A stretch of DNA of 64,000 bases from Paraburkholderia flagellata (GTDB lineage Bacteria; Pseudomonadota; Gammaproteobacteria; Burkholderiales; Burkholderiaceae), in the NCBI RefSeq assembly GCF_021390645.1, contig NZ_JAJEJT010000003.1:496001-560000 (forward strand), in the 5' to 3' direction. The position numbers and the translations under genes were made by a program. The notes under the pieces are model-generated. The model was not told where the DNA came from, made no database searches, and saw only the letters and a list, made by a program, of their open reading frames with translations. Shown here one piece after another: positions 7,946 through 63,290 of this stretch. The first letter of the stretch is position 1; each line of letters begins with the position of its first letter.

Positions 7946-8139
7946 CGTTGACATCTCATATTGTTCTGATGGAAGTGCTGCCGTGTCCTCTACTTCAGGA
8001 TTCTGTGCACAGTTGGACGCCCAACAGTTTGGGGTTCGGTCAAATTTATGCTATCAACGTAAAGACCAACAACAAGAATCGATGCCGGTGTTTGCCGTTT
8101 TCAGCCGGGGGAAAGCTGGAATCAATAACGGAGGCACCC

Positions 8140-45301: not shown

Positions 45302-45410
45302 CAGTCTGCCATGAGGGGGTCATTCCTGCACCTTGCCGTTCGGACGTTAAGGCGTCGGTCGTGTCGGGCAATCGGCCATTCGACTCCGCGAAATGTCCCG
45401 AAACAGCTGT

Positions 45411-46010: not shown

Positions 46011-46037
46011 ATATTCTCCTTCGGTTTGTCGGCGCGC

Positions 46038-46805: not shown

Positions 46806-46869
46806 TTCATTTTCCTCCGTAGATGTGCGCACGACCGGATCACTGGAGTGTCCGGCCGGGCGTGGTGCA

Positions 46870-47604: not shown

Positions 47605-47673
47605 GTCATGCATCCTTCGAGAGAAACGACAAACACCATTCTGGAGCGCTTGATTCATGAAGCCAATTGACTA

Positions 47674-47704
47674 AATATCTATAACTACGATCTACTTTTT
47701 AGAT
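47674..47704. promoter_or_regulatory. AT-rich divergent LysR/SDR promoter with inverted repeat
   Basis: The short gap between the divergent SDR and LysR genes is AT-rich. TATCTA around 47674 is repeated inverted as TAGATA at 47699-47704, immediately before the LysR start. This is a candidate LysR binding region, called from position and symmetry only. Confidence 0.35.
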
Positions 47705-47708
47705 AGCC

Positions 47709-48650: not shown

Positions 48651-48689
48651 TGCGTTTGCTCGGAGACGCTGCGATCCAGACCATGACGT

Positions 48690-48862
48690 GGGCACGACCA
48701 CGTCTCGAGCGGCGAGACTTTCATTTCCTTCCGTTCACTCTCACTCCAAAGCACGAGTACGGGACAGGCGAGCTTCCGGCCCGCAGCGAAATCGCTCGCG
48801 TCGTGCTCGAGATCCTCAGACGTCGCGGCGCGATAATCCTCACCCACGATGCTCTGGTCGAC
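48690..48862 (-). pseudogene. Alpha/beta hydrolase (haloacetate dehalogenase-like) remnant
   Basis: On the minus strand, VGEDYRAATSEDLEHDASDF and AAGRKLACPVLVLWSESE match the region before the acidic residue of fluoroacetate/haloacetate dehalogenase-type hydrolases (EDYRA, DLEHD, CPVLVLWG). The nucleophile and the catalytic His-containing C-terminus are not found in frame. The fragment lies antisense to the end of the LysR gene and just downstream of the DLH gene. It is a relict. Confidence 0.6.
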
Positions 48863-48968: not shown

Positions 48969-49703
48969 TTACAGCGTTCGCTTGAATAACGCCAACAGCT
49001 CGGTCCACCCGCGCTCGGCCGCCTTCTGGTTGTACACCGGAAAATCAGGCTTCATCCAACCATGCGCTGCGCCCTCGTACCTCTCAGCGCGATATCGCAC
49101 GCCTGCATTTCGCAAAGACGCTTCAAAGCGCTCCGCCATGTCTGCGGGATAGTGCGCGTCGTTGTCCGCTGCCGCAATGTACAACTCTGCCTCGAGCCCC
49201 GCGACGAATCGATGAGGACTGCTTGGCGCATCGGTCGCAAGATTGCCACCGTGAAAACTGGCAACGCCCGCGAATCGATCGGGATACGCGGCCGCGGAGG
49301 TAATCGCCATCCCACCGCCCATGCAGAATCCGACAGCGCCGTAACGATCGCCTTTTATGTCCGCTCTGCTATCGAGATACGCGATGAGGGCCTCCGTATC
49401 CTCAGCGGCTTTGTCGTTCCCCGTAGTTGCCATCAAGGGACCTAGAATAGCCATCACGTCGCCCCGGAAAACCTCTGCAGGCACAAGAGGCCCATACGGT
49501 CCAAATCGATAGAACAGATCGGGGAGCAGGACCACGAAGCCTGAATCCGCCAGCCGCCCTGCCATCGCCAAAACCGCCGGACGTATCCCGCCTGCGTCCA
49601 TGTAAAAAATCACGCCCGGCCACCGACCTGAGCCCGCCGGGCTGAATACGTGGGTTTCACAGTCGCCATCGTTGGTGCGGACAGTCACTTTCTCGTAAGG
49701 CAT
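48969..49703 (-). CDS. Dienelactone hydrolase-family protein
   Basis: This 244-residue alpha/beta hydrolase of the DLH family has Cys127 as the nucleophile in GAVGFCMGGGMAI, a possible acid in IAAADNDAHYPADM, and the His of YEGAAHGWMKPDF, so the Cys-Asp-His triad is intact. DLH enzymes open enol-lactones formed in aromatic catabolism. It is the last gene of the long minus-strand unit, 33 bp after the XdhC gene, and could open a lactone produced from the hydroxylated substrate. The alternative is a general ester hydrolase. Confidence 0.87.
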   Translation of the reverse strand: MPYEKVTVRTNDGDCETHVFSPAGSGRWPGVIFYMDAGGIRPAVLAMAGRLADSGFVVLLPDLFYRFGPYGPLVPAEVFRGDVMAILGPLMATTGNDKAAEDTEALIAYLDSRADIKGDRYGAVGFCMGGGMAITSAAAYPDRFAGVASFHGGNLATDAPSSPHRFVAGLEAELYIAAADNDAHYPADMAERFEASLRNAGVRYRAERYEGAAHGWMKPDFPVYNQKAAERGWTELLALFKRTL

Positions 49704-49736
49704 CGCGACAAACTCTCAATAGAAGGTACGGAACCA

Positions 49737-50759
49737 TTAAACGCATGCATTGATCGCGGGAGTATTCGCAACTTCTCTCGCCGCCTTCGCACACTCAACC
49801 CGGAGGGTCGCCGGTAGCAACACACTATTCTTCGCCGCTGTCACTTCCGCAAGGATCGATATCGCGATTTCGGGGGGTGTGCGGCTGCCGATATAGATCC
49901 CGGCCGGACCGCGTAAGCGCGCAAGCTGTGCGTCGTTTAGATCGAACTCTTTGAGCCGTTCCCGTCGCGCGGCATTGTTGCGTCGCGAACCGAGCGCACC
50001 GACGTAGAACGCCGGTGTCTTCAGCGCTTCCATTAGCGCGAGGTCGTCGAGCTTTGGATCGTGCGTGAGTGTAATCATCGCACTGCGTTCGTCGAGTTTC
50101 ATATCCAGAACCGTATCGTCGGGCATCGTACGGGTGAGCCTCGTGCCGGGAACGTCCCAGGTGTGCATGTACTCCTCGCGCGGATCGCACACTGTCACCT
50201 GATAATCGAGCCCTGTCGCGATCTGGCACAAGTAACGCGATAGCTGTCCCGCGCCAATTACCAGCATACGGTAGCGCGGACCGTGAATCGTCGTCAGGTG
50301 TGTTTCGTTGAAGTACACACCGTCAGTCGTACTCGCTGGCCCAAGTGTCGCTGCACCCGTCACCATGTCCAACGTGCGCGCCACCAGCTCGCCCCGACCG
50401 AGCGCTTCGTACACGGCATGAATACCGCTTTGCGGCGTAATCGGCTCGAGCACGAGTTGCATCGTGCCTCCGCATGGCAGCCCGAAACGACGCGCCTCCT
50501 CGGCGCTAATGCCGTATTCGACCACTTCGGGTGCCGTTTGCGTGACGCCGTATCGACGCACCCGGTCGATGAGGTCATCTTCGATGCAACCGCCCGAAAT
50601 GGAGCCCACCACATGACCATCGTCACGCAGAACGAGCATCGCGCCCTCCGGGCGCGGCGATGAGCCCCAGGTCTTCACCACGGTCACGAGCAGCATGCGG
50701 TCGCCCGCATCGAGCCAGCGCATCGCAGCTTCCAGAACCTCAAAATCGACACTGTTCAT
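49737..50759 (-). CDS. XdhC/CoxI-family molybdenum cofactor protein
   Basis: This 340-residue protein is of the XdhC/CoxI family, which binds sulfurated molybdenum cofactor and loads it into xanthine-oxidase-family enzymes. The N-terminal domain has VVKTWGSSPRPEGAMLVLRD and SISGGCIEDDL. The C-terminal Rossmann domain has VIGAGQLSRYLCQIA and FYVGALGSRRNNAARRERL. ATG at 50759 is preferred to the GTG six bases earlier because of the AAAGG spacing. Its presence in the same unit as the fused Mo hydroxylase at 56941-59886 strongly implies it serves that enzyme. Confidence 0.9.
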   Translation of the reverse strand: MNSVDFEVLEAAMRWLDAGDRMLLVTVVKTWGSSPRPEGAMLVLRDDGHVVGSISGGCIEDDLIDRVRRYGVTQTAPEVVEYGISAEEARRFGLPCGGTMQLVLEPITPQSGIHAVYEALGRGELVARTLDMVTGAATLGPASTTDGVYFNETHLTTIHGPRYRMLVIGAGQLSRYLCQIATGLDYQVTVCDPREEYMHTWDVPGTRLTRTMPDDTVLDMKLDERSAMITLTHDPKLDDLALMEALKTPAFYVGALGSRRNNAARRERLKEFDLNDAQLARLRGPAGIYIGSRTPPEIAISILAEVTAAKNSVLLPATLRVECAKAAREVANTPAINACV

Positions 50760-50807
50760 ACTCACCTTTCCTTCGATACGTGGTCAAGCGATTTCACGCG
50801 GGCGGCG

Positions 50808-51953
50808 TCAGAACGTATGGCGGATGCCGATCATCGCAGCGGTGCTTGAGGTGCCCTCAGGAACCGGCGCAGCATAGGCGATCGTCTGGCTCATCTTGCC
50901 GCGGTTATTGACATGGCCAACCTGTACGTAGGCGACGGTAGTCTTGGAGAAGTTGTATTCGGCACCCACTGCGAACAAATCCGACTGACTGGACGAAACG
51001 TTGCGGTCCTTCAGATAGTAGAAGCCCGAAGTGACCTTTAAGGCCGGACTAAATTTGTAGCCGATCCCCCCTGAAATCATCTCGAAGTCGTCGTGACTGC
51101 TGTTCGCCGGGTTCTTGCCAATGCTGTACGACGTCGACACGGAAAGATCGTGAAACGTGTACATCGCGCCCAGATAGTAGAAGCGGTTGTTGTTCTGGCC
51201 CGTGGAAGGCACCGTGATGATCGCGCCGGTAGCTGTCGTTATGAACGGATTGGTATCGTGGCCGTTGTAGTAAGCGGCCGAGAGGTTCAGGCCGTAGTTC
51301 GAATACCTAAGGACTGCCGACTCGCGCGTGCCGCCCTGGAACTGGCCAGCGACGCCACCCGGCGCATACTCGAGCCCAAGCGACAGACCATGAAATTTCG
51401 GCGATTGGTACACAATTGCGTTGGAGTCGTACAAGGCACCGATAGGACCGTTCGTGCTGGTGCCCTGCCAACCTGCAGCCTGATTCATGCCGAGCCATGC
51501 AGTGAGGATGCTGCCGAAGAATTGCGCACCACGTACGTCGGTATCGGCCATCGCGAATATCATCGGCACGAACTGACGGCCCGCGTCGATCGAGCCGAAA
51601 GGACCCGAGATGCCCAACGTCGCTTGCTGGTTGAAGATGGCGGCGGAGCCCGGCGTGTCGGACAGCCCGAGCTTTCCGTTTGTGCTGCTGAATGCTCCCT
51701 GTAGCCTGAAGTTGACCCTGTAACCGCCTCCGACATCTTCGGCACCCTTGATACCCCAGAAGCTTGTGAAAATCCCTGCGTCCTTGAGTTCGTAAGCATG
51801 CCCGAGATTCACTTTCGACTGGAAGTTCAGCGCATTCGCGCTTTGATACAGCAATCCGGTATCGATGGCGCCATAGAGCGTAACCGACGATTGCGCGTGT
51901 GCCGCGATCGCCCACCCAACGAGCGCCGAGGCGACGATCATCTTCAAATTCAT
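50808..51953 (-). CDS. Outer-membrane porin, Porin_4 family
   Basis: This 381-residue porin has a signal peptide (MNLKMIVASALVGWAIAAHA) cut before QSSVTLYGAIDTGLLYQ, and a 16-strand barrel ending in GIRHTF with the terminal Phe. It is encoded between the MFS transporter and XdhC genes on the same strand, so it probably provides the outer-membrane entry for the substrate of the molybdenum hydroxylase pathway. It differs in sequence from the other two porins of the window, which also sit in catabolic units. Confidence 0.92.
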   Translation of the reverse strand: MNLKMIVASALVGWAIAAHAQSSVTLYGAIDTGLLYQSANALNFQSKVNLGHAYELKDAGIFTSFWGIKGAEDVGGGYRVNFRLQGAFSSTNGKLGLSDTPGSAAIFNQQATLGISGPFGSIDAGRQFVPMIFAMADTDVRGAQFFGSILTAWLGMNQAAGWQGTSTNGPIGALYDSNAIVYQSPKFHGLSLGLEYAPGGVAGQFQGGTRESAVLRYSNYGLNLSAAYYNGHDTNPFITTATGAIITVPSTGQNNNRFYYLGAMYTFHDLSVSTSYSIGKNPANSSHDDFEMISGGIGYKFSPALKVTSGFYYLKDRNVSSSQSDLFAVGAEYNFSKTTVAYVQVGHVNNRGKMSQTIAYAAPVPEGTSSTAAMIGIRHTF

Positions 51954-52043
51954 GACGTCTCCAATATTGTATTTATGTGCCGAACGGGTCCGGCGTAGTC
52001 ACTTCAAAAGTTGCGGTGCGAGCAGATCGACGATCATGTGCAT

Positions 52044-53390
52044 TCATGTATCGATATCCACGAAGCTTCTTGTGTTGCGCGCTTCGAACGTACGTGTTGT
52101 TCGTTCGCCAGTTTCCGGGCCAAAGACAATGGCGATCAGCCCCACTGCAAATACGGAAGCGATACCGATTCCGACCGCACGAAATCCCAGATTTATCGAA
52201 GCAGAGGACACTAGCAAAGGTCCAAGTGCGGTAAATAGACGTGCCGCATTCCACGTGAATCCCTGCCCCGTGGCGCGAACATGGAGCGGAAAGAGTTCGG
52301 TCAGGTACAGCGCGACGATCCCGAATCCTCCCATTGCGAAAAAGCCGAATCCAAGCATGGCGAGATAGAACGTCATCAGGGTCTTCGCAACACCGAAAAG
52401 TGCAACGACCGCAATCCAGGCGCCAGCACAAAACACGGCATAGACCGCCCGTCTGGAAATACGAGGCACCAGACTGACCACAAGCAGTGTCGAAGCGTAT
52501 CCAAGTACCGCGCCGACGTTGGTCGACATGAAAGCGATGCCCGTTTGCCTGGTGAATTCTGCGTTGCCGGCATGGGGGAAAAACTCTCTCAGCAAAGTGG
52601 GAAAGAGAATCGACGCGCCCCAGCTACCGATCATCATTGCCGAAGAAATGAGCGTCCCTACAACGGTTCGACGAAGCAACGGACGGCCAAATATCTCGGA
52701 TATCGAGCCCATTCTGGGCCCTGCGTGACGAATTACGGCCGCATGTGACTGCTCCCAACGAGCCGATTCTGGTGTGATGAGCCGCAGGCCAAGGCTCGCA
52801 ACTGCCGGTGCCGCTCCGACACCAAGCATCCAACGCCATCCCGCACCTGAAAGAAAGATCGCAAGCGCGGAGGCAGCGACTAGCCCGACTACATTGGCAA
52901 CCTGCATCACCTGGACCGCCTTTGCCCTGTGCTTTTCCGGCCAGGTCTCCACAACCAGCGCGGCGCCCGCAGCCCACTCCCCCCCGATGCCGAAGCCCGC
53001 CAGCATCTGAAACAAAAGAAGTTGGTGCCAGTTGTGCGAGAAGGCACCGGCCGCCGTAAATACCGAGTAAATCAGCATCGTGCCGAGCATCACTCGCGCC
53101 CGCCCAAACCGGTCGGCCGCGATGCCAAACAGAATGCCGCCGATCCCCCAACAAAACAGTTTCGCGCCGACAATGAGCCCCCCGATCTGCATCACGCTGC
53201 CCTGTGACGCCCCAAGCAGGTCATGAAGGGCCGGCACCATGATCATGGTGAAAAGGTAGAGATCCATCGCATCGAACATCCAACCCACAAACGCCGACCC
53301 GAGCACTATCCAGGCTGCCTTTCCTACGGCCGAAGCACCGACATTGCTCCCGCCTTCTGTCGACTCAAACGGAGTCGAGTTCGTCTTCAT
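52044..53390 (-). CDS. MFS transporter, aromatic acid/organic acid type
   Basis: This 448-residue, 12-helix inner-membrane transporter has the helix 1 motif FVGWMFDAMDLYLFTMIM of the AAHS/SHS-like branch. The loop 2-3 signature is IAADRFGRARVMLG and GFGIGGEWAAGAALVVE lies in helix 4-5. The Asp pair of helix 1 is typical of proton-coupled aromatic acid importers such as PcaK and BenK. AAGGAG precedes the ATG. It lies 70 bp after CoxG and 90 bp before the porin gene in the molybdenum hydroxylase unit. An organic or (hetero)aromatic acid substrate is the best inference. Confidence 0.88.
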   Translation of the reverse strand: MKTNSTPFESTEGGSNVGASAVGKAAWIVLGSAFVGWMFDAMDLYLFTMIMVPALHDLLGASQGSVMQIGGLIVGAKLFCWGIGGILFGIAADRFGRARVMLGTMLIYSVFTAAGAFSHNWHQLLLFQMLAGFGIGGEWAAGAALVVETWPEKHRAKAVQVMQVANVVGLVAASALAIFLSGAGWRWMLGVGAAPAVASLGLRLITPESARWEQSHAAVIRHAGPRMGSISEIFGRPLLRRTVVGTLISSAMMIGSWGASILFPTLLREFFPHAGNAEFTRQTGIAFMSTNVGAVLGYASTLLVVSLVPRISRRAVYAVFCAGAWIAVVALFGVAKTLMTFYLAMLGFGFFAMGGFGIVALYLTELFPLHVRATGQGFTWNAARLFTALGPLLVSSASINLGFRAVGIGIASVFAVGLIAIVFGPETGERTTRTFEARNTRSFVDIDT

Positions 53391-53460
53391 CGGTCCATCT
53401 CCTTCTTTGCACTGCTAACAATTTAATAAGCATTTGCAGACGCTTTGACGCTATCGAGGG

Positions 53461-54120
53461 CTATGAGGAATGCAGCCTGACGAACCACTGCCTGCATTTC
53501 GAGGTCAGCGTTCTCCACAATATTCCGAGCACGGAGATCTCGTTCGTTGAGTCCGCAGCTTTGTCGCGACGGCGTTTCACCACCAAGGGGTGCCCTTCTC
53601 CAGGGGATTCTGAAGCGGACGAATCTGCGTCGACTCGATACGCCTCAGTCGCTGCAGCCGGATGATCTGCGAGTTTCCCCTGCAAATTAGCCGCGAATTG
53701 ACGCACCATCTGTTCCGCTACGGCATTTATGATGCCGACCCCGCGTCCATACTGCGCGACCTGCCCTGCCATCTGTACAGCGGTGCGAACGTCGACCTGT
53801 GTGCCGCCGGCGTCGCTGAGTCGAGCAAGAGAAAACGTGGTCTCCGTCGTGGCCGATCCGCGGTTCCTCGTTTCCTGCCATGTGGCTTTGACGGTCGCCG
53901 TATACCCGTCTGTTGACGATGCACTCAAAGTGACCGTGCCGGCGAATTCCATCGCAATTGGACCCAGCTTGACGCGAATCCGCCCTTTATACGAATCTTC
54001 ACCAAGGGTATCGGTGAGCGTCGCACCCGGAAAGCAGGATACGACCAACGGCACATCGAGTAATGCCTTCCAGGCGTTCTCGATAGTCGAGTCGACCGAA
54101 AAGTGATTTACGATTTCCAT
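53461..54120 (-). CDS. CoxG/SRPBCC-family protein
   Basis: This 219-residue protein is a START-like SRPBCC fold of the CoxG type (carbon monoxide dehydrogenase subunit G family). The core is residues 1-150: MEIVNHFSVDSTIENAWKAL, DVPLVVSCFPGATL, YKGRIRVKLGPIAMEFAGTV. A variable C-terminal tail of about 60 residues follows. CoxG-like proteins recruit or mature Mo hydroxylases, often at the membrane; some also act as cofactor carriers. The start overlaps the upstream fusion gene by 13 bp. The C-terminal tail resembles no known membrane anchor, although a basic cluster (VVKRRRDKAAD) is present. Confidence 0.85.
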   Translation of the reverse strand: MEIVNHFSVDSTIENAWKALLDVPLVVSCFPGATLTDTLGEDSYKGRIRVKLGPIAMEFAGTVTLSASSTDGYTATVKATWQETRNRGSATTETTFSLARLSDAGGTQVDVRTAVQMAGQVAQYGRGVGIINAVAEQMVRQFAANLQGKLADHPAAATEAYRVDADSSASESPGEGHPLVVKRRRDKAADSTNEISVLGILWRTLTSKCRQWFVRLHSS

Positions 54121-55673
54121 ACTTCTCCTCCCTCTTCCGTGTATTTTTCAAACAGGTCGAGTAGAACCTCGGCGTACGCATCCGGCGTATCCACACATGC
54201 GAGATGTGCGGCAGCGCTCAGCGTTCGTTCCGCCGCGCCGCGGATTCCTTGCGTCAACTTCGCGGATACGGCTCTCGGCACGCTCCTGTCGAGTTCGGCG
54301 TTCAGCACAAGCGTTGGAACATCGATCTCGCGCAAGAAACCAGAAACGTCATCCGTGGCGATGGCGTGCGATATTTCCAGGTATTCCTTTGAAGACATGG
54401 CCGCTATCTGCTGGGTAAGTCTTTCCCGCTTCGGGTACGCCGTGTCCCTGTGCAGTGTCTGCTCCACGTACATGCGCGCAAACAGATGCATCGGCAGCTT
54501 TTTCAACATCCCGTCGATCGCGGCCAGCCGCTTTTCCACTGCCGGTCCCGAAACGCCCGTGTAAGCGCTCGACAAGACCATGACCGCAACGCGTTGACCC
54601 AATTTTGCGGCAACGCGTACCGCAGTCAGTCCTCCCATTGAAATGCCCACCAGGCCGAAAGCATCGAGACCGATGGCTTCCGCCACGGCGACGACATCGT
54701 TGGCGACTGCGTCCGCATTCCACGGACTTCGCTTCGTCGAGTCGCCGTGACCTCGGGCATCTATCGCGACGACCCTATATTTCGCGGTCAATGCGGGCAA
54801 AATGTCGTCCCACAGCGCGCTTGACGTACCGAGACTGTGCAGCAAGATAACCGCAGGCCCGTTGCCAACGTCGACATAGGCGATCCGTTCGCGGTCGACG
54901 GTCAGAAACCGCTTGACGTGGGAGGAAGCGAACGGCGCTGTCACCTCGAGGCGCGCCGCAATGGAATCCGCCAGCGTATCGGCGGCGAGCGTGGCGAGGT
55001 CCGGCGAACGCAGACCAGGCGATTCGCGCAGAAACGTTTTAACGCCACGTAGCGCCTGAGGAGCCCGGCTGTTCATGAAGGCGACGAAATCGTCGAGTGC
55101 TCTGTCCAGTTCCCAGGGAGCGACAACTTCGCCGACAATCCCAAGTTCGAGTGCGGCTGTCGCGTCGACAGGCCGGCCCGTAAGAACGAGGCGCGAAATC
55201 GCCTTGATATGGACACGCTCGATGAGCGCGGACATCAGCAGTGCGGGAGCAAACTGTTTCTCGAGTTCATTGGCCTCGAACCGGCTACGCGTGTCGGCGA
55301 CGGCATAGTCGCTCGCCACAACGATTGCGCAGCCCATACCCGAAGCGAGCCCTTTGACGAAGCAGGCGACCGGTACCGCACTCGAACGGATGGCCTCGTA
55401 GAGGGCGAGAATTGGCGCCGCCCCTCGTTCCTTGATTGCGGGGCGTGGATCTTCCGTTGGCAAAGGCGCCGGCAATGGCGATGCGGCGCGCCCTGCGCAG
55501 AAATTCTCGCCCGCTCCGGATAGCACGATCGCCACGGTGCTCTCGGGAGGGTCGCTGATCACCTGAGTCAGCGCCCGGATCATAGCGTCATCCAACTCGT
55601 TCCTGCCATCAGCACTGTTCAAAGCGATATGAAATACATTGCCCGTCATCTTCAGCAGAAGATTTTCATGCAT
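54108..55673 (-). CDS. Crotonase-alpha/beta hydrolase fusion protein
   Basis: This 521-residue protein joins two enzymes. Residues 1-250 are an enoyl-CoA hydratase/isomerase (crotonase): FHIALNSADGRNELDDAM, the oxyanion segments GENFCAGRAA and KGLASGMGCAIVVASDYAVAD, and ALELGIVGEVV. Residues about 255-521 are an alpha/beta hydrolase of the PcaD/3-oxoadipate enol-lactonase type: LLHSLGTSSALWDDIL, IDARGHGDS, nucleophile elbow GISMGGLT with Ser345, Asp of NAELDRSVP and His of AAAHLACVD. GGAG precedes the ATG. Two consecutive steps, CoA-ester hydration/isomerisation and then lactone or thioester hydrolysis, would be linked on one chain. Confidence 0.87.
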   Translation of the reverse strand: MHENLLLKMTGNVFHIALNSADGRNELDDAMIRALTQVISDPPESTVAIVLSGAGENFCAGRAASPLPAPLPTEDPRPAIKERGAAPILALYEAIRSSAVPVACFVKGLASGMGCAIVVASDYAVADTRSRFEANELEKQFAPALLMSALIERVHIKAISRLVLTGRPVDATAALELGIVGEVVAPWELDRALDDFVAFMNSRAPQALRGVKTFLRESPGLRSPDLATLAADTLADSIAARLEVTAPFASSHVKRFLTVDRERIAYVDVGNGPAVILLHSLGTSSALWDDILPALTAKYRVVAIDARGHGDSTKRSPWNADAVANDVVAVAEAIGLDAFGLVGISMGGLTAVRVAAKLGQRVAVMVLSSAYTGVSGPAVEKRLAAIDGMLKKLPMHLFARMYVEQTLHRDTAYPKRERLTQQIAAMSSKEYLEISHAIATDDVSGFLREIDVPTLVLNAELDRSVPRAVSAKLTQGIRGAAERTLSAAAHLACVDTPDAYAEVLLDLFEKYTEEGGEVWKS

Positions 55674-55687
55674 TCCGATCTCCTGGT

Positions 55688-56935
55688 TTATCGCGACTTC
55701 ACGCCGGGTGATGGCATGCCCGGTACGAACTGCCGAACGACGCCCTGGTTCTGGAGTGTCCTCAGTTCATCAGCATCAAGGCCGACGTACTCGCCAAGCA
55801 CGACGTTGGTGTGTTCCCCAAGATGAGGTGGGTAGCTCGCATCGGCATACCCCTGAACATCAAACTTGATTGGATTGCCGGGCACGCGCACATGCGATCC
55901 CGCTCGACTACGAAGCTCGGCGAGCATGTCTCGATGCACGACCTGAGGGGCATTCAGTGCTTGATCAACTGTCTTGACCAGAGCGGCCGGAATCGACGCT
56001 GAATTCAGCAAATCGAGCCAACGCTGCGCCGGTTCGTCACGGAAGCGCGTCTCCAGTATTTCCCATAGCGCCACCTTGTTCGCGAGCCGTTCAGCCGGCC
56101 CCTTGAATCGCGGATCGAGCACCAGATGGGGCAACCCGACCGCCTTGCACAGGTCCGCCCACATGCGTTCCGTGTTGGCGGTCACGACCAGTGAAACGCC
56201 GTCGCCACATTCGAACGAGCGATAGGTCGGTATCGAATCGTGACCTCGTCCCTGCTGTTCCGGCACTTCGCCCGACAGCAGATAATAGGCACCTTGATAA
56301 CAAAGCATCGCGATCTGCGCATCGAGCATCGACACATCGACGAACCGCCCTTCGCCTGAGGTTTGGCGCTGGACCAGCGCGGCCAGGATGCCCATCACGC
56401 CGTACATGCCGGCCGCCAGGTCGCCGATTGGAATGCCAGCGCGAACGGGCGCCCTGCCAGGCTCGCCGGTCAGACTCATGCCACCCGACATCGCCTGCAC
56501 GATCATGTCGTAAGCGGGTAGGTCCCTGTCCGGGCCGGTCTGTCCGAACCCGCTGATGCTGCAGTAGACGAGCCTTGGATTGCGCGCGCGAAGCTCCGCC
56601 TGACCGAGTCCGAGCCGCTCCATGACACCCGGGCGATTGTTTTCTACGAGGACATCAGATTGCGCCGCCAACTCCCGAACGAGTTCGACGCCCTTCTCCG
56701 TCTTGAGGTCAATCACGACACTCTTCTTGTTGCGATTGACTGCGAGATAGTAGGCGCTATCCCCCTCTACGAAATGGGGAGGCACACCGCGTGAGAGTTC
56801 GCCCCCCGGCGGCTCGATCTTGATGATCTCAGCACCGAGGTCGCCGAGGATTTGTGTACCGAAAGGGCCCGAGAGGAACTGCGTGAGGTCCAGAACCCTC
56901 ACACCGCTCAGCGGACCAGTGTTACCAGAGTCCAT
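55688..56935 (-). CDS. CaiB/BaiF-family CoA-transferase
   Basis: This 415-residue family III CoA-transferase moves CoA between carboxylic acids via an enzyme-aspartyl anhydride. Signatures are VRVLDLTQFLSGPFGTQILGDLGAEIIKIEPPGGE at the N-terminus, NRNKKSVVIDLKTEKG, the glycine-rich ISGFGQTGPDRDLPAYDMIVQAMSG, and VDVSMLDAQIAML holding the catalytic Asp. It would activate the imported acid. It lies 5 bp after the Mo hydroxylase gene and 14 bp before the fusion gene, so co-transcription is nearly certain. The activation route thus needs a CoA donor and not ATP. Confidence 0.9.
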   Translation of the reverse strand: MDSGNTGPLSGVRVLDLTQFLSGPFGTQILGDLGAEIIKIEPPGGELSRGVPPHFVEGDSAYYLAVNRNKKSVVIDLKTEKGVELVRELAAQSDVLVENNRPGVMERLGLGQAELRARNPRLVYCSISGFGQTGPDRDLPAYDMIVQAMSGGMSLTGEPGRAPVRAGIPIGDLAAGMYGVMGILAALVQRQTSGEGRFVDVSMLDAQIAMLCYQGAYYLLSGEVPEQQGRGHDSIPTYRSFECGDGVSLVVTANTERMWADLCKAVGLPHLVLDPRFKGPAERLANKVALWEILETRFRDEPAQRWLDLLNSASIPAALVKTVDQALNAPQVVHRDMLAELRSRAGSHVRVPGNPIKFDVQGYADASYPPHLGEHTNVVLGEYVGLDADELRTLQNQGVVRQFVPGMPSPGVKSR

Positions 56936-56940
56936 ATTCG

Positions 56941-59886
56941 TTATCCAACAAGTTCTTCGTTCGAGATGTGCCGTGCGTCGACGTCGCTGTATGCGCCAGC
57001 GGCATGCAGACGATCAAAGATCATTTCAGGAAGCACGGGTGATTCGTCAAAATGAATTGACCAACGGCTCAGCGCATCCTCAATGGCACTGACGATCGCT
57101 GCGGATGCAGGAATCGTCCCGCCCTCTCCGGCCCCTTTGACACCAAGAGGATTGTTCGGCGAAGGGGAAACAAGATGCGCCATCGCGATGCGAGATGGCA
57201 TGTCGAGTGCGGTAGGCAGCAGAAACTCGGCGAAATTCGTCGCAAGCGGCTGGGCATTCTCATCGTAGCCGTGGCGCTCGAGCAGCGTATTTCCGATCCC
57301 ATGGGAAATGGCGCCAATCACTTGACCCTCGACGAGCATCGGATTGATCACGGTCCCGCAATCGTGTGCAACGCCATAGCGCAAGACCTTTACATAGCCA
57401 GTCCCGATATCCACCTCGACTTCCGCGAATGCCGTTCCGTTGGCGTAGACGCTCGCTTTCGGGGAAAAATAATGCGTGACGGTCATGCCCGCATCCAGCC
57501 CGTCAGGTAGCGTGAACCCAGCTATTCCATAAGAGATTCGAGCGATTTGGCCAAGCGGCAACGCCCTTTCCGGCTGGCCTCGCACGCATACCGCGCCACG
57601 TGCGATCTCGATCTGATCCGGTGGAACACGAAGAGCGTTCGCGGCGAGCGCCCTGATTTTTCCAGCGAGCTTGCCGCATGCGATGTGAACGGCATTTCCA
57701 GCGTTGACGGTGATCCGGCTCGCGAATGTCCCGATGCCCATTGCGAGCTTGCCCGTATCGCCGACGACTACCGTTATGGCATCCATCTCGACGCCGAGCT
57801 GATCGGCAGCGATCTGGGCAAAGATGGTTTTCATTCCTTGCCCTTGCGCGCCGGCGCCGCCGACGTCCAGGTGTATGCGTCCGTCGTTTTGCAACGTGAC
57901 TTCCGCCCCTTCATATGGGCCGAGGCCGCAACCCTCGACATAGTTGGCAAAGCCAATCCCGAGATACCGTTGCTGCGCGTGCGCGTCCTCCTGACGGGCA
58001 CGAAATGCGTCCAGACCGGCAAGCTCGACGGCCTCTTCCTGGGTCTTCGGATAGTCGCCGGAGTCATACACCATCGGGGAACCGTCGCGGAATATCAGGC
58101 CAGTTTTGTACGGCAGTTGGTCCGGCTGCACGAAATTTCGGCGTCGAATTTCCAGACGGGCGAGGCCGAGCTGGTCGGCTGCCGCGTCGAGCATCCGCTC
58201 CATCGCGAATACCGCTTTGGGCCGCCCCGCGCCGCGCACCGGCGTGGTGGGGACCATGTTCGTGGAAGCCACCTTCAACTTCACGTCGAATGCCGGTATG
58301 ACGTACGGGCCTAGCGACGAGGTCACCGCGATGATCGGCACGACGATGCCCCACGGCACGTACGCACCGTTATCGTGGACCACGGAGCCGCGCACACCGA
58401 GGATCTTTCCGTCCTTGTCAAGCGCCATCTCCAGATCCCACAACTGGTCGCGCTCCTGAGTAATGCACAGGAAGTGCTCACGCCGATCTTCGGTCCACTT
58501 GACCGGCACACCCAGCTTGAGCGCCGCCGAAGCCACGACAAACTCTTCCGGATACGCGATACCCTTCGGACCGAAAGCCCCCCCGACATCCGGCATGATG
58601 ACCCGGATCTTCGCTTCGTCGTAGCCGAGCGCCTGCGCGAGAAGACGTCTCTCGAGATGCGGTGCCTGGCCTGAATTCCAGACGGTCAGATCACCGGTAC
58701 CGCGATCGAGCCGCGCAAGCGTCGCGCGGCACTCCATCGGATGCGCAGTTCCGCGATGATGGAATATCTCGCGCTTGACCACATGCGCTGCGCGCGCGAA
58801 GGCCGAGTCGACTTCGCCGAAAGCAAACGGCATGTTGAGGAGGAGGTTTGTCGGAACGTCGCTGTGAGCCCGTGGCGCATCCGGTTCGAATATCGTCCGG
58901 ATGTTGCTGGCGACGGGCAGAACTTCGTACTCGATCTGCACCAGGTTAGCGGCGTCCTCGGCGATGTACCGGCTTTCTGCAATGACGACGGCGACCGCCT
59001 CGCCGACGTAGCACACTTCCTCCGCGGCCAACGGCGACCACATGCGCGGCTCGTCCAGCATCTGAGTCGGTGCCAGGACCGGCAATGGCCGCCGGTGGGC
59101 TTCATCCAGGTCAGCATATGTCCAGACATGCTGTACCCCCGGGACAGCCTTTGCTGCTTCCGTATCGACGTGCTTGATGCGGGCGTGCGCGTGCGACGAT
59201 CGCACGAAACAGCAATGCAATGTTCCGGGGAGGTGGATATCGTCGACGAACTGCCCCTCGCCCTTGAGCAGCGCGGGGTCTTCGGTTCGCTTGACGGGTC
59301 TGCCGACATACCGTGCACCAACGGTCGGAGCCGCGTCGGGCTCGCTGTTTTTTGAGTGTGAGTCGACCAGTCCGAAAACGGGATCGGGTTCGCCGCGCAT
59401 TCGGGCGGCCGCGAGCAACGCCGCTTCGACAATGGCCTGATAGCCAGTACAGCGGCAGATATTCCCGCTGACCGCATCGCGAACTTCGGCCTCGGACGGG
59501 TTGGGGTTGGCTCGCAGAAACTCGGTTAGCGTGGTCAGCATGCCTGGGGTGCAGTATCCGCACTGCAATGCATGGCGATCCTGAAAGGCCTGCTGCAGGA
59601 CACCGAGCGAGCCGTCGGCATTCGCCAGCCCCTCTACAGTTGTGACCTGCCTCCCGTCGACCTGACCACAAAGCTGCAGGCAGGAACGCATGGAACGTCC
59701 ATCCACCAGTACCGTGCATGCCCCGCAAACGCCATGCTCACAGCCATAATGCGTGCCTGTCTTGCCAAGCTGGTGACGAAGAAAATCGCCGAGCGTCACT
59801 CTGGGGTCAATGTCGCAGTTCAGCGCCTGGCCGTTCAGTTCGAAGGCAATCTTTGTTGGTTCGACGAATTCGATTCTCTGATTCAT
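56941..59886 (-). CDS. Fused [2Fe-2S]-molybdopterin hydroxylase (xanthine oxidase family)
   Basis: This 981-residue protein fuses the small and large subunits of a xanthine oxidase-family hydroxylase. Residues 1-165 are the ferredoxin-like domain with YGCEHGVCGACTVLVDGRSM and QCGYCTPGM...GNICRCTGYQ, binding two [2Fe-2S] clusters. Residues about 185-981 are the Mo domain with VIMPDVGGAFGPKG, VRGAGRPKAVFAMERMLD and the catalytic Glu of GVKGAGEGGTIPAS. The CoxL-specific Cys loop is absent (RGAGRP instead), so it is not a form I CO dehydrogenase. It likely hydroxylates a CoA ester or heterocycle with water as oxygen source. GAGGG precedes the ATG. Confidence 0.92.
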   Translation of the reverse strand: MNQRIEFVEPTKIAFELNGQALNCDIDPRVTLGDFLRHQLGKTGTHYGCEHGVCGACTVLVDGRSMRSCLQLCGQVDGRQVTTVEGLANADGSLGVLQQAFQDRHALQCGYCTPGMLTTLTEFLRANPNPSEAEVRDAVSGNICRCTGYQAIVEAALLAAARMRGEPDPVFGLVDSHSKNSEPDAAPTVGARYVGRPVKRTEDPALLKGEGQFVDDIHLPGTLHCCFVRSSHAHARIKHVDTEAAKAVPGVQHVWTYADLDEAHRRPLPVLAPTQMLDEPRMWSPLAAEEVCYVGEAVAVVIAESRYIAEDAANLVQIEYEVLPVASNIRTIFEPDAPRAHSDVPTNLLLNMPFAFGEVDSAFARAAHVVKREIFHHRGTAHPMECRATLARLDRGTGDLTVWNSGQAPHLERRLLAQALGYDEAKIRVIMPDVGGAFGPKGIAYPEEFVVASAALKLGVPVKWTEDRREHFLCITQERDQLWDLEMALDKDGKILGVRGSVVHDNGAYVPWGIVVPIIAVTSSLGPYVIPAFDVKLKVASTNMVPTTPVRGAGRPKAVFAMERMLDAAADQLGLARLEIRRRNFVQPDQLPYKTGLIFRDGSPMVYDSGDYPKTQEEAVELAGLDAFRARQEDAHAQQRYLGIGFANYVEGCGLGPYEGAEVTLQNDGRIHLDVGGAGAQGQGMKTIFAQIAADQLGVEMDAITVVVGDTGKLAMGIGTFASRITVNAGNAVHIACGKLAGKIRALAANALRVPPDQIEIARGAVCVRGQPERALPLGQIARISYGIAGFTLPDGLDAGMTVTHYFSPKASVYANGTAFAEVEVDIGTGYVKVLRYGVAHDCGTVINPMLVEGQVIGAISHGIGNTLLERHGYDENAQPLATNFAEFLLPTALDMPSRIAMAHLVSPSPNNPLGVKGAGEGGTIPASAAIVSAIEDALSRWSIHFDESPVLPEMIFDRLHAAGAYSDVDARHISNEELVG

Positions 59887-59893
59887 GCTGCCC

Positions 59894-60760
59894 TCAGCTT
59901 GCGTTCAATGCGCGGGCGAACGCGCGCACCAGCGCACGCTCGGTCACCGTGCACGCGAGACGTTTCCGGTATGCAGCACTAGCACTCGTGTCGCTAAGTG
60001 CATCAATCCAGCTTGCTCGGCTGGCGGCTGTCTTTGCCAGATCGGCGCTGGGCTGCTGTCCCTCCAGGACGTCGGCAAACTGGAGACGACATGGTTTGCC
60101 ACCCATCCCACACAGCACCGCGTCGGCATGCGTGATCGCGTGATTGACGTCGACCGAAACCATGACCGCGGCGCCGACGATCGCGAAGTCCCCATGTCTG
60201 CGTGCGAATTCCTCGAACGCGTATCCGTGCGGCTCATTCCAGATACGAAGGCGAATCTGCGTCACCATTTCGTCCGGCTCGATCGAGGTAGTCATGAAGC
60301 CGAGGGCGAATTCATCGAACGGGATGCGCCGCTCTCCCCGCGGTCCCACGGCGACGATGGTCGCATTGAAGATTTCGGCCAGAGCGGGCTGCTCCGAGGC
60401 CGGATCGAGGTTGCAGACGCTGCCGACAAACGTACCCCGATTTCGCGTCTGAATGTGACCGACCAATCGATACGCCTCGACCATCAGCGGCGCGTATTGA
60501 TGAATCAAAGGAGATTGCTCGAGATCCCGCTGACGAACCAACGCGCCGACACAGACCTCGTCGTCTTCCAACGTTATCTGATTGAGACCAGGTATCGCGT
60601 TCACATCGACCACGTGATCCACATACGCGTAGCGCATGGCCAGCATCGGCATCAGCGTCTGTCCGCCAGCGACGATGCGTGCGTTGTCCAGCGTGGCAAG
60701 TAGCTCAACGGCACGCGCGACGCTTTCTGGACGGTGCCAGGTAAAGGGTGCTGATTTCAT
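59894..60760 (-). CDS. FAD-binding medium subunit of molybdenum hydroxylase (CoxM-like)
   Basis: This 288-residue protein has the FAD_binding_5 and CO_deh_flav_C domains. The FAD motifs are VAGGQTLMPMLAMR (residues about 30-44) and QTRNRGTFVGSVCNLDPASEQPAL, the counterpart of the usual TxGGSxxHxDPAxE loop. The missing second Gly and the Asn in place of His are notable deviations. It completes the Mo-Fe-FAD electron chain with the fused protein encoded 7 bp downstream. Co-occurrence with the thiolase/DUF35 genes (3 bp gap) shows it lies inside one operon. Confidence 0.88.
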   Translation of the reverse strand: MKSAPFTWHRPESVARAVELLATLDNARIVAGGQTLMPMLAMRYAYVDHVVDVNAIPGLNQITLEDDEVCVGALVRQRDLEQSPLIHQYAPLMVEAYRLVGHIQTRNRGTFVGSVCNLDPASEQPALAEIFNATIVAVGPRGERRIPFDEFALGFMTTSIEPDEMVTQIRLRIWNEPHGYAFEEFARRHGDFAIVGAAVMVSVDVNHAITHADAVLCGMGGKPCRLQFADVLEGQQPSADLAKTAASRASWIDALSDTSASAAYRKRLACTVTERALVRAFARALNAS

Positions 60761-60763
60761 TTC

Positions 60764-61933
60764 TCATCTTCCAAGAATGTGTATCGCACACGCGCCGTGA
60801 TCGAAGCCATAGGTGCCTCCACCGGTGATGTGCGCCAGCCCGATTCGGGGACCGCCCGGCTTGTCTCGCGCGACCTGTCGCGCGCCGCAGCGACCCTGCA
60901 ACTGACGTGTTATTTCGACGATCTGCGCGATCCCTGACGCTCCGAGCGGATGGCCCCTGCAGAGCAGACCGCCGGACGGGTTGAACGGAATCCGTCCGGT
61001 AAGCGACGTTTCGCCGTCTCTGATCAAACGCGCCCCGTCTCCGTGCGCTGCAAATCCAAGTGCTTCGTAGTACAGCAGTTCGGCGATGGTGAAAGCATCG
61101 TGGCATTCGACGAGATCGATGTCGGAAGGACCGAGACCGCAAGACTCGTAAGTTTCGTTCGCACAACGCACTGTCACCTCGGGCGTCGTCATGTCGCGCG
61201 CGCCCTGCATGTAACGCCCCGATGTCAGATGGGACGCGAGAATCTTCACCGCCCCTGGCTTTGCCTCAGGGAGGTTGGAGGCGGCAAGGACCACCGCCGA
61301 AGCACCATCGCCAAGCGGACAGCACTGATGCAACGTCAGCGGCGATGCCACCGTGCGGCAGCCGAGCACTTCGTCGACCGAGGTTGTGCTGCGAATCTGT
61401 GCGTAGGGGTTGAGCGCGCCATTCGCCCTGGCCTTGACGGCTATGAGCGCGAGATCACGAGGCGACAAATCGAATTCATGCATGTATCGTTGTGCGCGCA
61501 TCGCGTACAGAGCGGGCATTGTCAATCCGTTCGCCGCCTCGACATCCTCATCGCCCAGGTCAAGTGGCCCGCCTCCGAGACGAGTCAATTGCTCTACCCC
61601 AACCACGACTGCACAATCCACCGCGCCTGCGGCAATCGCAAGATAGGCGTGCCGAAACGCGCTAGCCGATGACGAGCATGCGTTCTCGAAATTTGCCGCT
61701 TCGATACCGGTCAGGCCCGTCTCCCGTGCAATACGTTGGGCGGCCAGCGGACCGCCGGATACCGTTCCACAGTAAAGCGCACCGATGCGTCGACGATCGA
61801 TTCCGGCTTCATCCAGCGCTTCGATGACCGCCGGTGCGGCGAGTTGGGAGAGACTCACTTCCGGGAAACGTCCAAAACGGATCATGCCCGTTCCAACGAC
61901 GTTCACACTCCGAAGACCGTTCGTCATGCTCAT
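60764..61933 (-). CDS. Thiolase-family protein (SCP-x/BbsB-like)
   Basis: This 389-residue thiolase-superfamily protein has the nucleophilic Cys in NFENACSSSASAFRHAYLAI (about residue 88), and His/Cys sites in VECHDAFTIAELLYYEALGF and GGLLCRGHPLGASGIAQ. It belongs to the acetyl-CoA acetyltransferase/SCP-x-like branch. That branch works with a DUF35 partner, as in BbsAB benzoylsuccinyl-CoA thiolase and the Ltp2 retro-aldolases of steroid degradation. Its start overlaps the DUF35 stop as ATGA. It probably cleaves the carbon chain at the end of the pathway. Whether thiolysis or retro-aldol chemistry occurs cannot be said. Confidence 0.87.
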   Translation of the reverse strand: MSMTNGLRSVNVVGTGMIRFGRFPEVSLSQLAAPAVIEALDEAGIDRRRIGALYCGTVSGGPLAAQRIARETGLTGIEAANFENACSSSASAFRHAYLAIAAGAVDCAVVVGVEQLTRLGGGPLDLGDEDVEAANGLTMPALYAMRAQRYMHEFDLSPRDLALIAVKARANGALNPYAQIRSTTSVDEVLGCRTVASPLTLHQCCPLGDGASAVVLAASNLPEAKPGAVKILASHLTSGRYMQGARDMTTPEVTVRCANETYESCGLGPSDIDLVECHDAFTIAELLYYEALGFAAHGDGARLIRDGETSLTGRIPFNPSGGLLCRGHPLGASGIAQIVEITRQLQGRCGARQVARDKPGGPRIGLAHITGGGTYGFDHGACAIHILGR

Positions 61934-62352
61934 GAATTGGCCTGCCCGGAAATCTCGCCGGGTGCAGTAAAGAAGTAAATGAAGCGACTCGCTTGTTGAT
62001 TTGCCGGCTCCACTCGCAATTCGAGCTGCTGCCCTGGCTGGACAACGCCAGCCGCCATTTCAATGCGCCCGAAAACCCGCAGGCCATCACTCAGGTCCAC
62101 GTACCCGACGGTGTAGGGCGTGTCGACGCCCTTTGGCCCCATATGCACGACGCTGTAGCAGTAGAGCGTGCCGATCGCCGGCAACGGCGCCGCAATGAAG
62201 CCACGACCGCCGCATTGCGGGCACACGGTGAGCACGGGATAGATCGGCGCTTCGCAGTCGGCGCACTTCGCCCCGAGCAAGGACCAGCCATCCCGCCCTC
62301 TTACAACTGAGGCTGTGCCTAAGTGTCTGAAACCGTTCACGTTGACTCTCAT
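61930..62352 (-). CDS. DUF35 OB-fold/zinc-ribbon protein
   Basis: This 140-residue protein has an N-terminal rubredoxin-like zinc ribbon with Cys30, Cys33, Cys44 and Cys47 (AKCADCEAPI, TVCPQCGGRG). An OB-fold acyl-CoA-binding domain follows (YSVVHMGPKGVDTPYTVGYV, LRVFGRIE). DUF35 proteins form complexes with thiolase-like enzymes, so the coupled downstream gene is the expected partner. It is the first gene of the minus-strand unit. The ribosome site AGGA lies directly against the ATG, which is unusual; GTG at 62340 is an alternative start. Confidence 0.87.
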   Translation of the reverse strand: MRVNVNGFRHLGTASVVRGRDGWSLLGAKCADCEAPIYPVLTVCPQCGGRGFIAAPLPAIGTLYCYSVVHMGPKGVDTPYTVGYVDLSDGLRVFGRIEMAAGVVQPGQQLELRVEPANQQASRFIYFFTAPGEISGQANS

Positions 62353-62369
62353 TCCTGTACGAAATCTAT

Positions 62370-62394
62370 GGTGTAGTGTGTATTACACTATACC
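62370..62394. promoter_or_regulatory. TetR operator candidate
   Basis: GGTGTAGTGT (62370-62379) and ACACTATACC (62385-62394) form an inverted repeat with 9 of 10 matched positions around a 5-bp spacer. It sits 18 bp upstream of the DUF35 start and about 220 bp before the TetR start, over the likely minus-strand -10 region (TATAGT). Confidence 0.6.
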
Positions 62395-62492
62395 TTTCGC
62401 TGACGACGAGAAAGGTAGGGAAAACCCCTGCGCCCTGGCGAATTTTGCCAACGCCGGGCAGAATGCCTTGCAGACCGAACCTCAGCAGGCGG

Positions 62493-62510
62493 CCCGGGAC
62501 TCGACCCGGG
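62493..62510. repeat. CCCGGG hairpin in the TetR leader
   Basis: Two CCCGGG copies (62493-62498, 62505-62510), each self-complementary, are separated by 6 bp, about 100 bp before the TetR start. They could form a hairpin in the leader. No function is assigned. Confidence 0.4.
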
Positions 62511-62612
62511 AAATGCATCGGATGTTGCATGCCCGTCCGGGTGACACACGGATACGCTGCCTCGATACAAGCTGTAAATCGTAGAACCGCAGGACAGTTT
62601 TGGAGCTGATAA

Positions 62613-63290
62613 GTGGAAATGGCGAAGGCAGGAAGGAAGAAGCCCCTCTCGAGGACAGAGAACCGCTCGACGGACGGCGTAGAGGGGTATCAGCAGCGCG
62701 TCAGCAGGGAAAAGCGCAAGCTGATACTCGAGGTCGCAATCACAACGTTTCTGCAAAGCGGATACGACGCGGCCACGATGGATTCCATCGGCGATCGCGC
62801 GGCAGTGTCATATGCGACTCTGTACAAACATTTTCCCAGCAAGGAAACCCTGTTCGTTGAAGCGGTGGACCATCTGATCCATGAGCTATTTTCACGCTGG
62901 AAGGACCACCCCGTGCCCCCAGAGGTCGAACCGGGCCTACGCGAAATTGGCCGCGCATACTGCGAGCTCGTTTCGGATACTCGATTGATTGCCACAATGC
63001 GCCTGATCATTGGCGAAGTGCGAACTTTTCCCGACATGGGCTCCCGCTTTCAACTTGCAAAGCATCTATTCAGCGATATTACGGATGCCTGGTTGCAAAA
63101 GCGGATTGACGAAGGAAAGCTGCGTATTGCCGCCGTGCCACTTGCGCGCGCAGAGTTTATTGGCATGCTGGGTGAAACCCTGTTCTATCCTCGCTTGACG
63201 CAAATTGATTACGCCATATCTGATGAGCAGGCGGAAAAGATCGTCGAGAGCGCGGTTTCCACTTTTCTAGGGCGATACCGAGTGCAATGA
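62613..63290 (+). CDS. TetR/AcrR-family transcriptional regulator
   Basis: This 225-residue TetR-family protein has a DNA-binding helix-turn-helix at about residues 35-80 (KRKLILEVAITTFLQSGYDAA, MDSIGDRAAVSYATLYKHF) and a helical ligand-binding C-terminus. The first 30 residues are basic and Ser/Thr-rich. The start is taken as GTG at 62613, 7 bases after GGAG; ATG at 62619 is possible. It is divergent from the DUF35/thiolase/Mo hydroxylase unit, and the 25-bp palindrome at 62370-62394 fits a TetR operator. TetR ligands in acyl-CoA pathways are often CoA esters, which is inference for this one. Confidence 0.9.
   Translation: MEMAKAGRKKPLSRTENRSTDGVEGYQQRVSREKRKLILEVAITTFLQSGYDAATMDSIGDRAAVSYATLYKHFPSKETLFVEAVDHLIHELFSRWKDHPVPPEVEPGLREIGRAYCELVSDTRLIATMRLIIGEVRTFPDMGSRFQLAKHLFSDITDAWLQKRIDEGKLRIAAVPLARAEFIGMLGETLFYPRLTQIDYAISDEQAEKIVESAVSTFLGRYRVQ

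Follow-up and report, generated by a model that had tools for sequence, protein, structure and literature searches.

Within a 64,000-nucleotide stretch of the Paraburkholderia flagellata genome (contig NZ_JAJEJT010000003.1, positions 496,001 to 560,000; hereafter the window), 11 open reading frames (ORFs) run along the minus strand at 48969-62352, opposite a divergent TetR gene at 62613-63290 on the plus strand (Table 1). The genome is 9.0 Mb in six contigs. The initial annotation had described this arrangement, and all of its ORFs are present in that span and on that strand. Each of its family names for the 11 genes, like that of TetR, is backed by a Pfam match above the gathering score. From comparison of these proteins with their relatives, we propose that the genes probably encode a coenzyme A (CoA)-linked pathway which degrades a ring acid and ends in a thiolysis of the BbsAB type.

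Gene content, conservation and mobility

The 11 genes are unevenly spaced. From DUF35 to DLH the junctions measure -4, 3, 7, 5, 14, -13, 70, 90, 42 and 33 bp, so the initial description of many overlaps or gaps of 3-14 bp suits six of the ten (-13 to +14 bp), while the other four are 33-90 bp.

Table 1. Coordinates in the window of the cassette genes, the divergent regulator and the candidate operator (L009-L012 are the four close relatives named in the text).
Feature	Position	Strand	Basis
TetR-family regulator, AefR-like C-terminal domain, divergent	62613..63290	+	Pfam TetR_N, TetR_C_7; adjoins operon in L009-L012
Candidate TetR operator	62370..62394		25-bp inverted repeat, 10-bp arms, 1 mismatch, 5-bp spacer
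DUF35 (Zn-ribbon/OB-fold) thiolase partner	61930..62352	-	Pfam PF12172 (zf-ChsH2), PF01796 (OB_ChsH2_C)
BbsB-like thiolase	60764..61933	-	Best PDB match 7pxp_C (BbsB), E 2e-81; tree
FAD subunit of Mo hydroxylase	59894..60760	-	Pfam PF00941 (FAD_binding_5), PF03450 (CO_deh_flav_C)
Fused [2Fe-2S]-Mo hydroxylase catalytic subunit, 981 aa	56941..59886	-	Pfam Fer2+Fer2_2+MoCoBD
CaiB/BaiF (family III) CoA-transferase	55688..56935	-	Pfam PF02515 (CoA_transf_3)
Crotonase/enol-lactonase-like fusion, 521 aa; proposed isomerase + lactonase	54108..55673	-	Pfam ECH_1 + Abhydrolase_1
CoxG (SRPBCC) protein	53461..54120	-	Pfam PF06240
MFS transporter, aromatic-acid/H+ symporter-like	52044..53390	-	Pfam MFS_1; best NCBIfam TIGR00895, below cut-off
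Outer-membrane porin	50808..51953	-	Pfam PF13609; present in L009-L012
XdhC-family Mo-enzyme maturation factor, end of conserved module	49737..50765	-	Pfam PF13478, PF02625
DLH-family hydrolase, 33 bp past XdhC, outside conserved module	48969..49703	-	Pfam PF01738

The gene cluster is real and well conserved. Each protein search covered some 8000 scored candidates, and the counts given here are among the matches listed. Of 79 loci retrieved, the best 12 were annotated; among named relatives, the closest fusion proteins come from Paraburkholderia and Burkholderia sp. H160. In the final comparison, 12 window proteins were searched with tblastn against 18 loci, among them ~21.5-kb loci of four close relatives (L009-L012: P. 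nodosa CNPSo 1341, P. nodosa DSM 21604 (L010), P. guartelaensis and Burkholderia sp. H160). All four carry TetR, DUF35, thiolase, the flavin adenine dinucleotide (FAD) subunit, the fused iron-sulphur (FeS)-molybdenum (Mo) subunit, CaiB, fusion, CoxG, MFS, porin and XdhC in the same order, with a BON-domain gene inserted between porin and XdhC in H160; the search for this gene order in other genomes, suggested with the initial annotation, thus succeeded from TetR to XdhC. DLH has no match in any of these four loci, so we regard it as a local neighbour rather than a core gene and rule it out as a second pathway lactonase. Where two lactonase-type hydrolases had been claimed, the conserved module holds one.

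The cassette is rare and apparently horizontally moved. Nucleotide similarity to three of the relatives (L009, L011, L012) breaks off where TetR ends on one side and close to where XdhC ends on the other. Counting the window's own genome each time, the fusion occurs in 2 of 59 relatives and, across the order, in 2 of 399 genomes; the thiolase (E <= 1e-120) occurs in 4 of the 58 genomes of the genus and, in a phylum-wide search, in the window's genome alone (1 of 398). The left flank (~45.3-48.7 kb), an SDR-SDR-LysR region at 45350-48700 (SDR, short-chain dehydrogenase/reductase), has a match in 26 of the 58 genus genomes, that of the window among them. In all five cassette-free genomes taken from those 26 for comparison, similarity stops abruptly at 48,669-48,703, at the start of the cassette region. 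No right edge of the insertion could be located, with no further match >150 bp in five 14-kb stretches. We take P. nodosa, P. guartelaensis and H160 to be nodule isolates; a link to nodule symbiosis was considered and dropped, there being no nifH over cut-off in the window genome.

Enzymes of the cassette and of related modules

The nearest solved structure to the thiolase is BbsB of benzoylsuccinyl-CoA thiolase (277 bits), followed at some distance by the next match (201 bits, E 4.2e-58), and the thiolase gene overlaps that of the DUF35 protein by 4 bp. A 29-row tree separates the family from two acetyl/acetoacetyl-CoA thiolases (100/100) and places BbsB, whose branch is long, with the family. 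Eighteen family-conserved positions are common to BbsB alone (of 26, 8 lie where the PDB strings stop and were excluded), vs 7 common to the other two thiolases and not BbsB; R146, R169 and R246 are among those common to BbsB alone. Across 41 rows, R146 and R246 never vary and R169 hardly does. Orthologue names at JGI include several BbsB and others acetyl-CoA acetyltransferase. Among DUF35 chains, the DUF35 protein is nearest BbsA (7pxp_A, 47.5 bits); two higher matches are designed pentatricopeptide repeats and look spurious.

Similar thiolases occur in other settings. Besides the megaplasmid CP063167 described below, six plasmid loci were opened of 41 records, with thiolases 44-49% identical to that of the window. 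DUF35 is adjacent in 6/6, an SDR and an enoyl-CoA hydratase follow in 5/6 (all except M. branderi), a CoA-transferase lies in the same gene run in 4/6 (Variovorax SRS16, C. necator N-1, Novosphingobium and M. branderi) and PrpF is near in 2/6. The stretches shown of these loci, whose gene set we take to be close to the bbs set, carry no annotated acyl-CoA dehydrogenase. In one Burkholderiales genus, where 4 of 10 genomes were annotated, all four have DUF35, thiolase (60%) and CaiB (55-56%), with no match to FAD, FeS-Mo, CoxG or fusion in the stretches fetched; an MmgE/PrpD gene was confirmed in one of them.

The fusion protein would open the ring. Its hydrolase half is nearest PcaD, the 3-oxoadipate enol-lactonase, by both best PDB relative (77.6 bits) and best NCBIfam models, and S345 of the sequence GISMGG, D462 and H490, which we take to be the catalytic triad from knowledge of the family, stand in invariant columns (28 rows). 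The crotonase half has Ala at the first catalytic Glu position (residue 116), where Ala or Gly is found in 20/20 window-type rows (13 of the 28 fusions plus 7 unfused relatives), whereas Glu is found in 5/5 hydratases from SDR-containing loci. All 25 rows retain the second Glu (136). With Ala116 and Glu136, this half lacks one of the two glutamates of an enoyl-CoA hydratase. One-Glu crotonases are typically isomerases, and the missing residue makes isomerisation likelier than the hydration step assigned to the fusion in the initial annotation; a plain hydratase is disfavoured on the same grounds. The SDR-containing loci could form their keto group through hydration followed by oxidation, and the window cluster, whose module has no SDR, could obtain it from the opened ring.

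Ring oxidation is assigned to the Mo hydroxylase, a member of the xanthine-oxidase family by Pfam and by its PDB relatives. The best of these are 6-hydroxypseudooxynicotine dehydrogenase (482 bits), quinoline 2-oxidoreductase (463) and the CO dehydrogenase subunit CoxL (449), and the Mo subunit scores below the cut-offs for aerobic CO dehydrogenase (NF040766, 800.6 vs 950 bits; TIGR02416, 499.4 vs 991 bits). A locus of Xenophilus sp. L33 (L013, 21.5 kb) keeps DUF35 (49%), thiolase (77%), CaiB (73%), fusion (54%), MFS (61%) and TetR (52%), and has no match for FAD, FeS-Mo, CoxG, XdhC or porin. In place of the Mo genes, between thiolase and CaiB (6739-8731), it has a flavin mononucleotide (FMN) monooxygenase of the NtaA/DmoA family, above the curated cut-off (471 bits vs 280), and an FMN reductase. 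A Burkholderiales metagenome-assembled genome (MAG) whose fusion is about as distant (50%) retains FAD, FeS-Mo and CoxG. The Xenophilus swap suggests one exchangeable step, and fits a single oxygenation which two unrelated enzymes, a Mo hydroxylase or a flavin monooxygenase, can carry out. It also fits the initial description of CoxG and XdhC as helpers of the Mo enzyme, since both are unmatched in that locus, as it is; the role itself we assume from knowledge of the families.

Relatives of the Mo genes are found in modules with other ends. The V. paradoxus VAI-C megaplasmid (CP063167, ~1.149-1.169 Mb) is like the window in its enzymes (CoxG, DUF35, thiolase (62%), FAD, FeS, Mo (52%) and CaiB (57%)) but unlike it in that crotonase and hydrolase (34% each) are unfused, as are FeS and Mo. 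It adds a GMC oxidoreductase, an aldehyde dehydrogenase, ABC uptake genes and IclR, and its record names no pathway; the oxidoreductase and aldehyde dehydrogenase would fit an alcohol precursor. Another VAI-C plasmid (CP063168.1, L166) bears a further Mo cluster of simpler make-up (hydrolase, FAD, FeS, Mo, SRPBCC, TetR).

Two genomes of the window's family (L168, 4702-16443; L169, 3981-14226), with Mo subunits 68% identical to that of VAI-C, have CoxG, FAD, FeS, Mo, crotonase and a PcaD-like hydrolase beside UbiD- and UbiX-type genes and an aldehyde dehydrogenase (the UbiD, UbiX and PcaC calls in L169 were made by eye). In the 20 kb retrieved from each genome, nothing matches CaiB, thiolase or DUF35; CoA ligases were not searched for. 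In L168, UbiX is above cut-off, XdhC is present, a 138-aa protein is PcaC-like (below cut-off) and UbiD is nearest 6h6x/6h6v, which we take to be the furandicarboxylate decarboxylase HmfF. The L169 aldehyde dehydrogenase is above the succinate-semialdehyde dehydrogenase subfamily cut-off (722 of 646) and below the equivalog cut-off (785 of 828). A five-membered lactone opened without CoA would give succinate semialdehyde, either directly or by decarboxylation of formylsuccinate.

Unfused relatives of Mo, crotonase and hydrolase also occur in six Rhodospirillales MAGs (L014, L016-L020), one with caprolactamase-like hydantoinase genes alongside (L020) and another with a CitE-like lyase (L014), both below model cut-offs. 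On a Neorhizobium petrolearium plasmid (L092, 5988-11932), UbiD, a Mo subunit, a one-Glu crotonase and a monooxygenase are found together.

Proposed route and its rivals

From the observed gene content, family placement, conservation, operator-like repeat and glutamate pattern we infer the reactions, their order and the substrate, as follows. The substrate would be a five-membered oxygen-heteroaromatic acid with its carboxyl at position 3 (3-furoate or a 2-substituted 3-furoate), taken up via porin and MFS transporter. CaiB, which matches PF02515 over its full length (440.5 bits, residues 9-376), would transfer CoA from succinyl-CoA to the ring acid, and the Mo/FeS/FAD hydroxylase would then place a water-derived oxygen on C5 (+ H2O - 2[H]) to give a butenolide tautomer. 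The crotonase half would shift the ring double bond to form an enol-lactone, which the lactonase half (+ H2O) would open to R-CO-CH(CH2COOH)-CO-SCoA, i.e., 2-formyl- or 2-acylsuccinyl-CoA. Finally, the BbsB-like thiolase and DUF35 protein (+ CoA) would yield formyl-CoA (or R-CO-CoA) and succinyl-CoA, the latter being reused as CoA donor.

What points to position 3 is the thiolase. We take the BbsB substrate to be R-CO-CH(CH2COOH)-COSCoA, and C5 hydroxylation and hydrolysis of 3-furoyl-CoA would give this shape, whereas a 2-furoyl ring misfits because it gives 2-oxoglutaroyl-CoA. A BbsB-like thiolase therefore points away from 2-furoate, toward a ring acid which opens to a 2-acylsuccinyl-CoA. 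The route first suggested is partly supported (the families fit CoA transfer, Mo hydroxylation, lactone-type opening and thiolytic cleavage), with isomerisation in place of hydration and one lactonase in place of two.

Confidence differs between parts of this proposal. The chemistry as a whole at class level, i.e., a TetR-controlled mobile cassette for an acid of the furan-3-carboxylate type, we put slightly short of an even chance. We are more tentative about an undescribed CoA route for 3-substituted furans in which the fusion yields 2-formyl(acyl)succinyl-CoA, a BbsAB-kind thiolase acts last and Mo and flavin oxidation are interchangeable. That 3-furoate itself is the substrate we consider doubtful.

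Several observations weigh against the furan-3-carboxylate route. The thiolase is 40% identical to BbsB and 36% to each of two other thiolases, and it does not reach the BbsB model NF053628 (292.5 bits vs a cut-off of 750), so we call it a relative of BbsB, not BbsB. The DUF35 protein barely separates BbsA from 6esq_E (47.5 vs 46.0 bits), the hydrolase half is below the cut-off of the PcaD model TIGR02427 (142.5 vs 255.85 bits), and CaiB scores 320 of 750 bits on the succinate-glutarate CoA-transferase model. In the more distant Mo modules (the six Rhodospirillales loci, L168 and L169), thiolase and DUF35 are unmatched in 8/8, which suggests that the front end works elsewhere without this end, and CaiB is matched in 2/8 (both Rhodospirillales, 2/6); L168 and L169 keep the crotonase without a CaiB match, other CoA ligases being outside that search. 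The L168 UbiD is below its family cut-off (216 of 245), as the PcaC- and PcaD-like proteins are below theirs, and L168 has an NCS2 (nucleobase-type) transporter. The L092 monooxygenase, nearest 3-hydroxybenzoate 6-monooxygenase (below cut-off), would suit a benzenoid or nitrogen compound. Lastly, we know of no precedent for thiolysis to formyl-CoA (R = H).

The same module could instead act on a nitrogen ring: a pyrrole or other N-heteroaromatic carboxylate would be hydroxylated, its lactam opened and ammonia lost to reach the same acylsuccinyl-CoA. The closest PDB relatives of the Mo subunit act in its favour, as do the L168 transporter, the L020 caprolactamase-like genes (below cut-off) and a match of the hydrolase half to alpha-(N-acetylaminomethylene)succinate hydrolase (3kxp). 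That match is weaker than the one to PcaD (44.5 vs 77.6 bits), however, enol-lactonases are the best hydrolase relatives and none of the 11 genes has a Pfam amidase or deaminase family, so we consider a nitrogen ring unlikely. We give similarly little credence to a reversed order, in which the free acid is hydroxylated and opened before CaiB activates the resulting 2-acylsuccinate, much as BbsEF activates benzylsuccinate. For CaiB, the best NCBIfam models include those of succinate-glutarate and mesaconate CoA-transferases (below cut-off), a CoA-transferase is present at several BbsB-like thiolase loci and Mo modules without a CaiB or thiolase match exist, all of which would suit this order. 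Fusion of a crotonase-fold domain to the lactonase nevertheless argues for a CoA thioester at that step, and free 2-acylsuccinates are beta-keto acids, which are prone to decarboxylation.

A substrate of the furan-2-acetate type is less probable again. Hydroxylation would give the CoA ester of 3-oxoadipate enol-lactone, the very lactone of the nearest relative of the hydrolase half, and its opening to 3-oxoadipyl-CoA would be followed directly by thiolysis to acetyl-CoA and succinyl-CoA. The thiolase is BbsB-like, however, with a far weaker match to beta-ketoadipyl-CoA thiolase 6pca (E 1.7e-5 vs 2e-81), and we know of no natural source of 2-furylacetate.

The initial annotation had noted a resemblance to 2-furoate catabolism, and CoA activation and a Mo hydroxylase are indeed common to both (PMC6678421, PMC6604932). 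A variant of the published Hmf pathway with a CoA-transferase replacing the synthetase is nonetheless improbable: 2-furoyl-CoA is converted to 2-oxoglutaroyl-CoA, which is then hydrolysed, without a thiolase step (PMC6604932). No AMP-binding Pfam domain occurs in the 11 genes, hence there is no HmfD-type AMP-forming furoyl-CoA synthetase among them, and furoyl-CoA dehydrogenase is absent from the source names shown among 120 listed Mo relatives, many of them nameless. No hmf cluster was recognisable by eye, without an HmfA reference, in the ORFs of four Mo paralogue regions of the genome. Compared with the hmfABCDE pathway, the window shares a Mo hydroxylase, an XdhC-type helper and, as we read it, a heteroaromatic CoA thioester and lactone intermediate, but has CaiB rather than an acyl-CoA synthetase, FeS fused to the Mo subunit, a lactonase-like fusion and a terminal thiolase, and another product is expected.

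Least probable is another cyclic acid (benzenoid, alicyclic, pyranoid or a larger fused ring) or a detoxification role: the substrate was not fixed by any sequence tool, related genes in L092 accompany a hydroxybenzoate-monooxygenase-like one and L014 has its CitE-like lyase nearby, but the succinate-semialdehyde-type dehydrogenase of L169 and the L168 UbiD nearest 6h6v/6h6x speak against it.

Under the furan-3-carboxylate route, the closest known system at the cleavage end is the bbs pathway of anaerobic toluene degradation, with which the window shares a thiolase nearest BbsB, an adjacent DUF35 subunit, a CaiB-type CoA-transferase and, by our reading, succinyl-CoA as both product and donor. 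The window module differs in lacking an acyl-CoA dehydrogenase, a two-Glu hydratase and an SDR, in having a ring hydroxylase and the crotonase/lactonase fusion instead, and in a thiolase below the BbsB model cut-off. The middle of the route resembles the beta-ketoadipate pathway, where muconolactone isomerase is followed by enol-lactonase: here too a butenolide would be isomerised and an enol-lactone opened by a PcaD-fold hydrolase, except that the isomerase would be a crotonase-fold domain, fused to the lactonase and acting on a CoA ester.

The combination of genes was one the initial annotation did not recognise, and in the literature searched (subscription journals mostly outside) we likewise found no published cluster of this kind, no catabolic route for furan-3-carboxylates and, in titles and abstracts, no 3-furoate catabolism or formylsuccinyl-CoA metabolite. 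The cassette thus appears to be a new combination of known enzyme families, with a specific, testable pathway and a candidate substrate. Furan-3-yl groups occur widely in terpenoids of plants and fungi. Production of methyl 3-furoate by wood-rot fungi is reported (PMC9769625). The reading offers a named intermediate, a named last step and a testable job for BbsB-like thiolases beyond toluene degradation; if it is true, a BbsAB-type thiolase, familiar from the anaerobic degradation of toluene, would end a ring-acid pathway.

Control region and further thiolase loci

TetR would control the cassette, and an inverted repeat 17 bp before the DUF35 start is a candidate for its operator. The perfect core of this repeat, TAGTGT-N5-ACACTA (62374-62390), is unchanged in L009-L011, while L012 has one arm mismatch and a different spacer. 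Allowing <=1 mismatch, the pattern, which was picked from the site itself, has one match in the window vs 0.01 expected. A second inverted repeat of equal arm length (62391-62417) shows no conservation in the alignment, and scans for sigma-70 promoters and terminators gave no excess over shuffles. Upstream of the operator-like repeat, in the window's 62353-62612, a GGGTTTTCCC-ACCT block is almost unchanged in five aligned Paraburkholderia/Burkholderia sequences; it is possibly a promoter or activator site.

Four further loci (L165, L170, L173 and L135) have BbsB-like thiolase/DUF35 pairs with a CoA-transferase, with an SDR and hydratase in the first three and PrpF/PrpD in three of the four; these are perhaps for degradation of substituted itaconates or aconitates.

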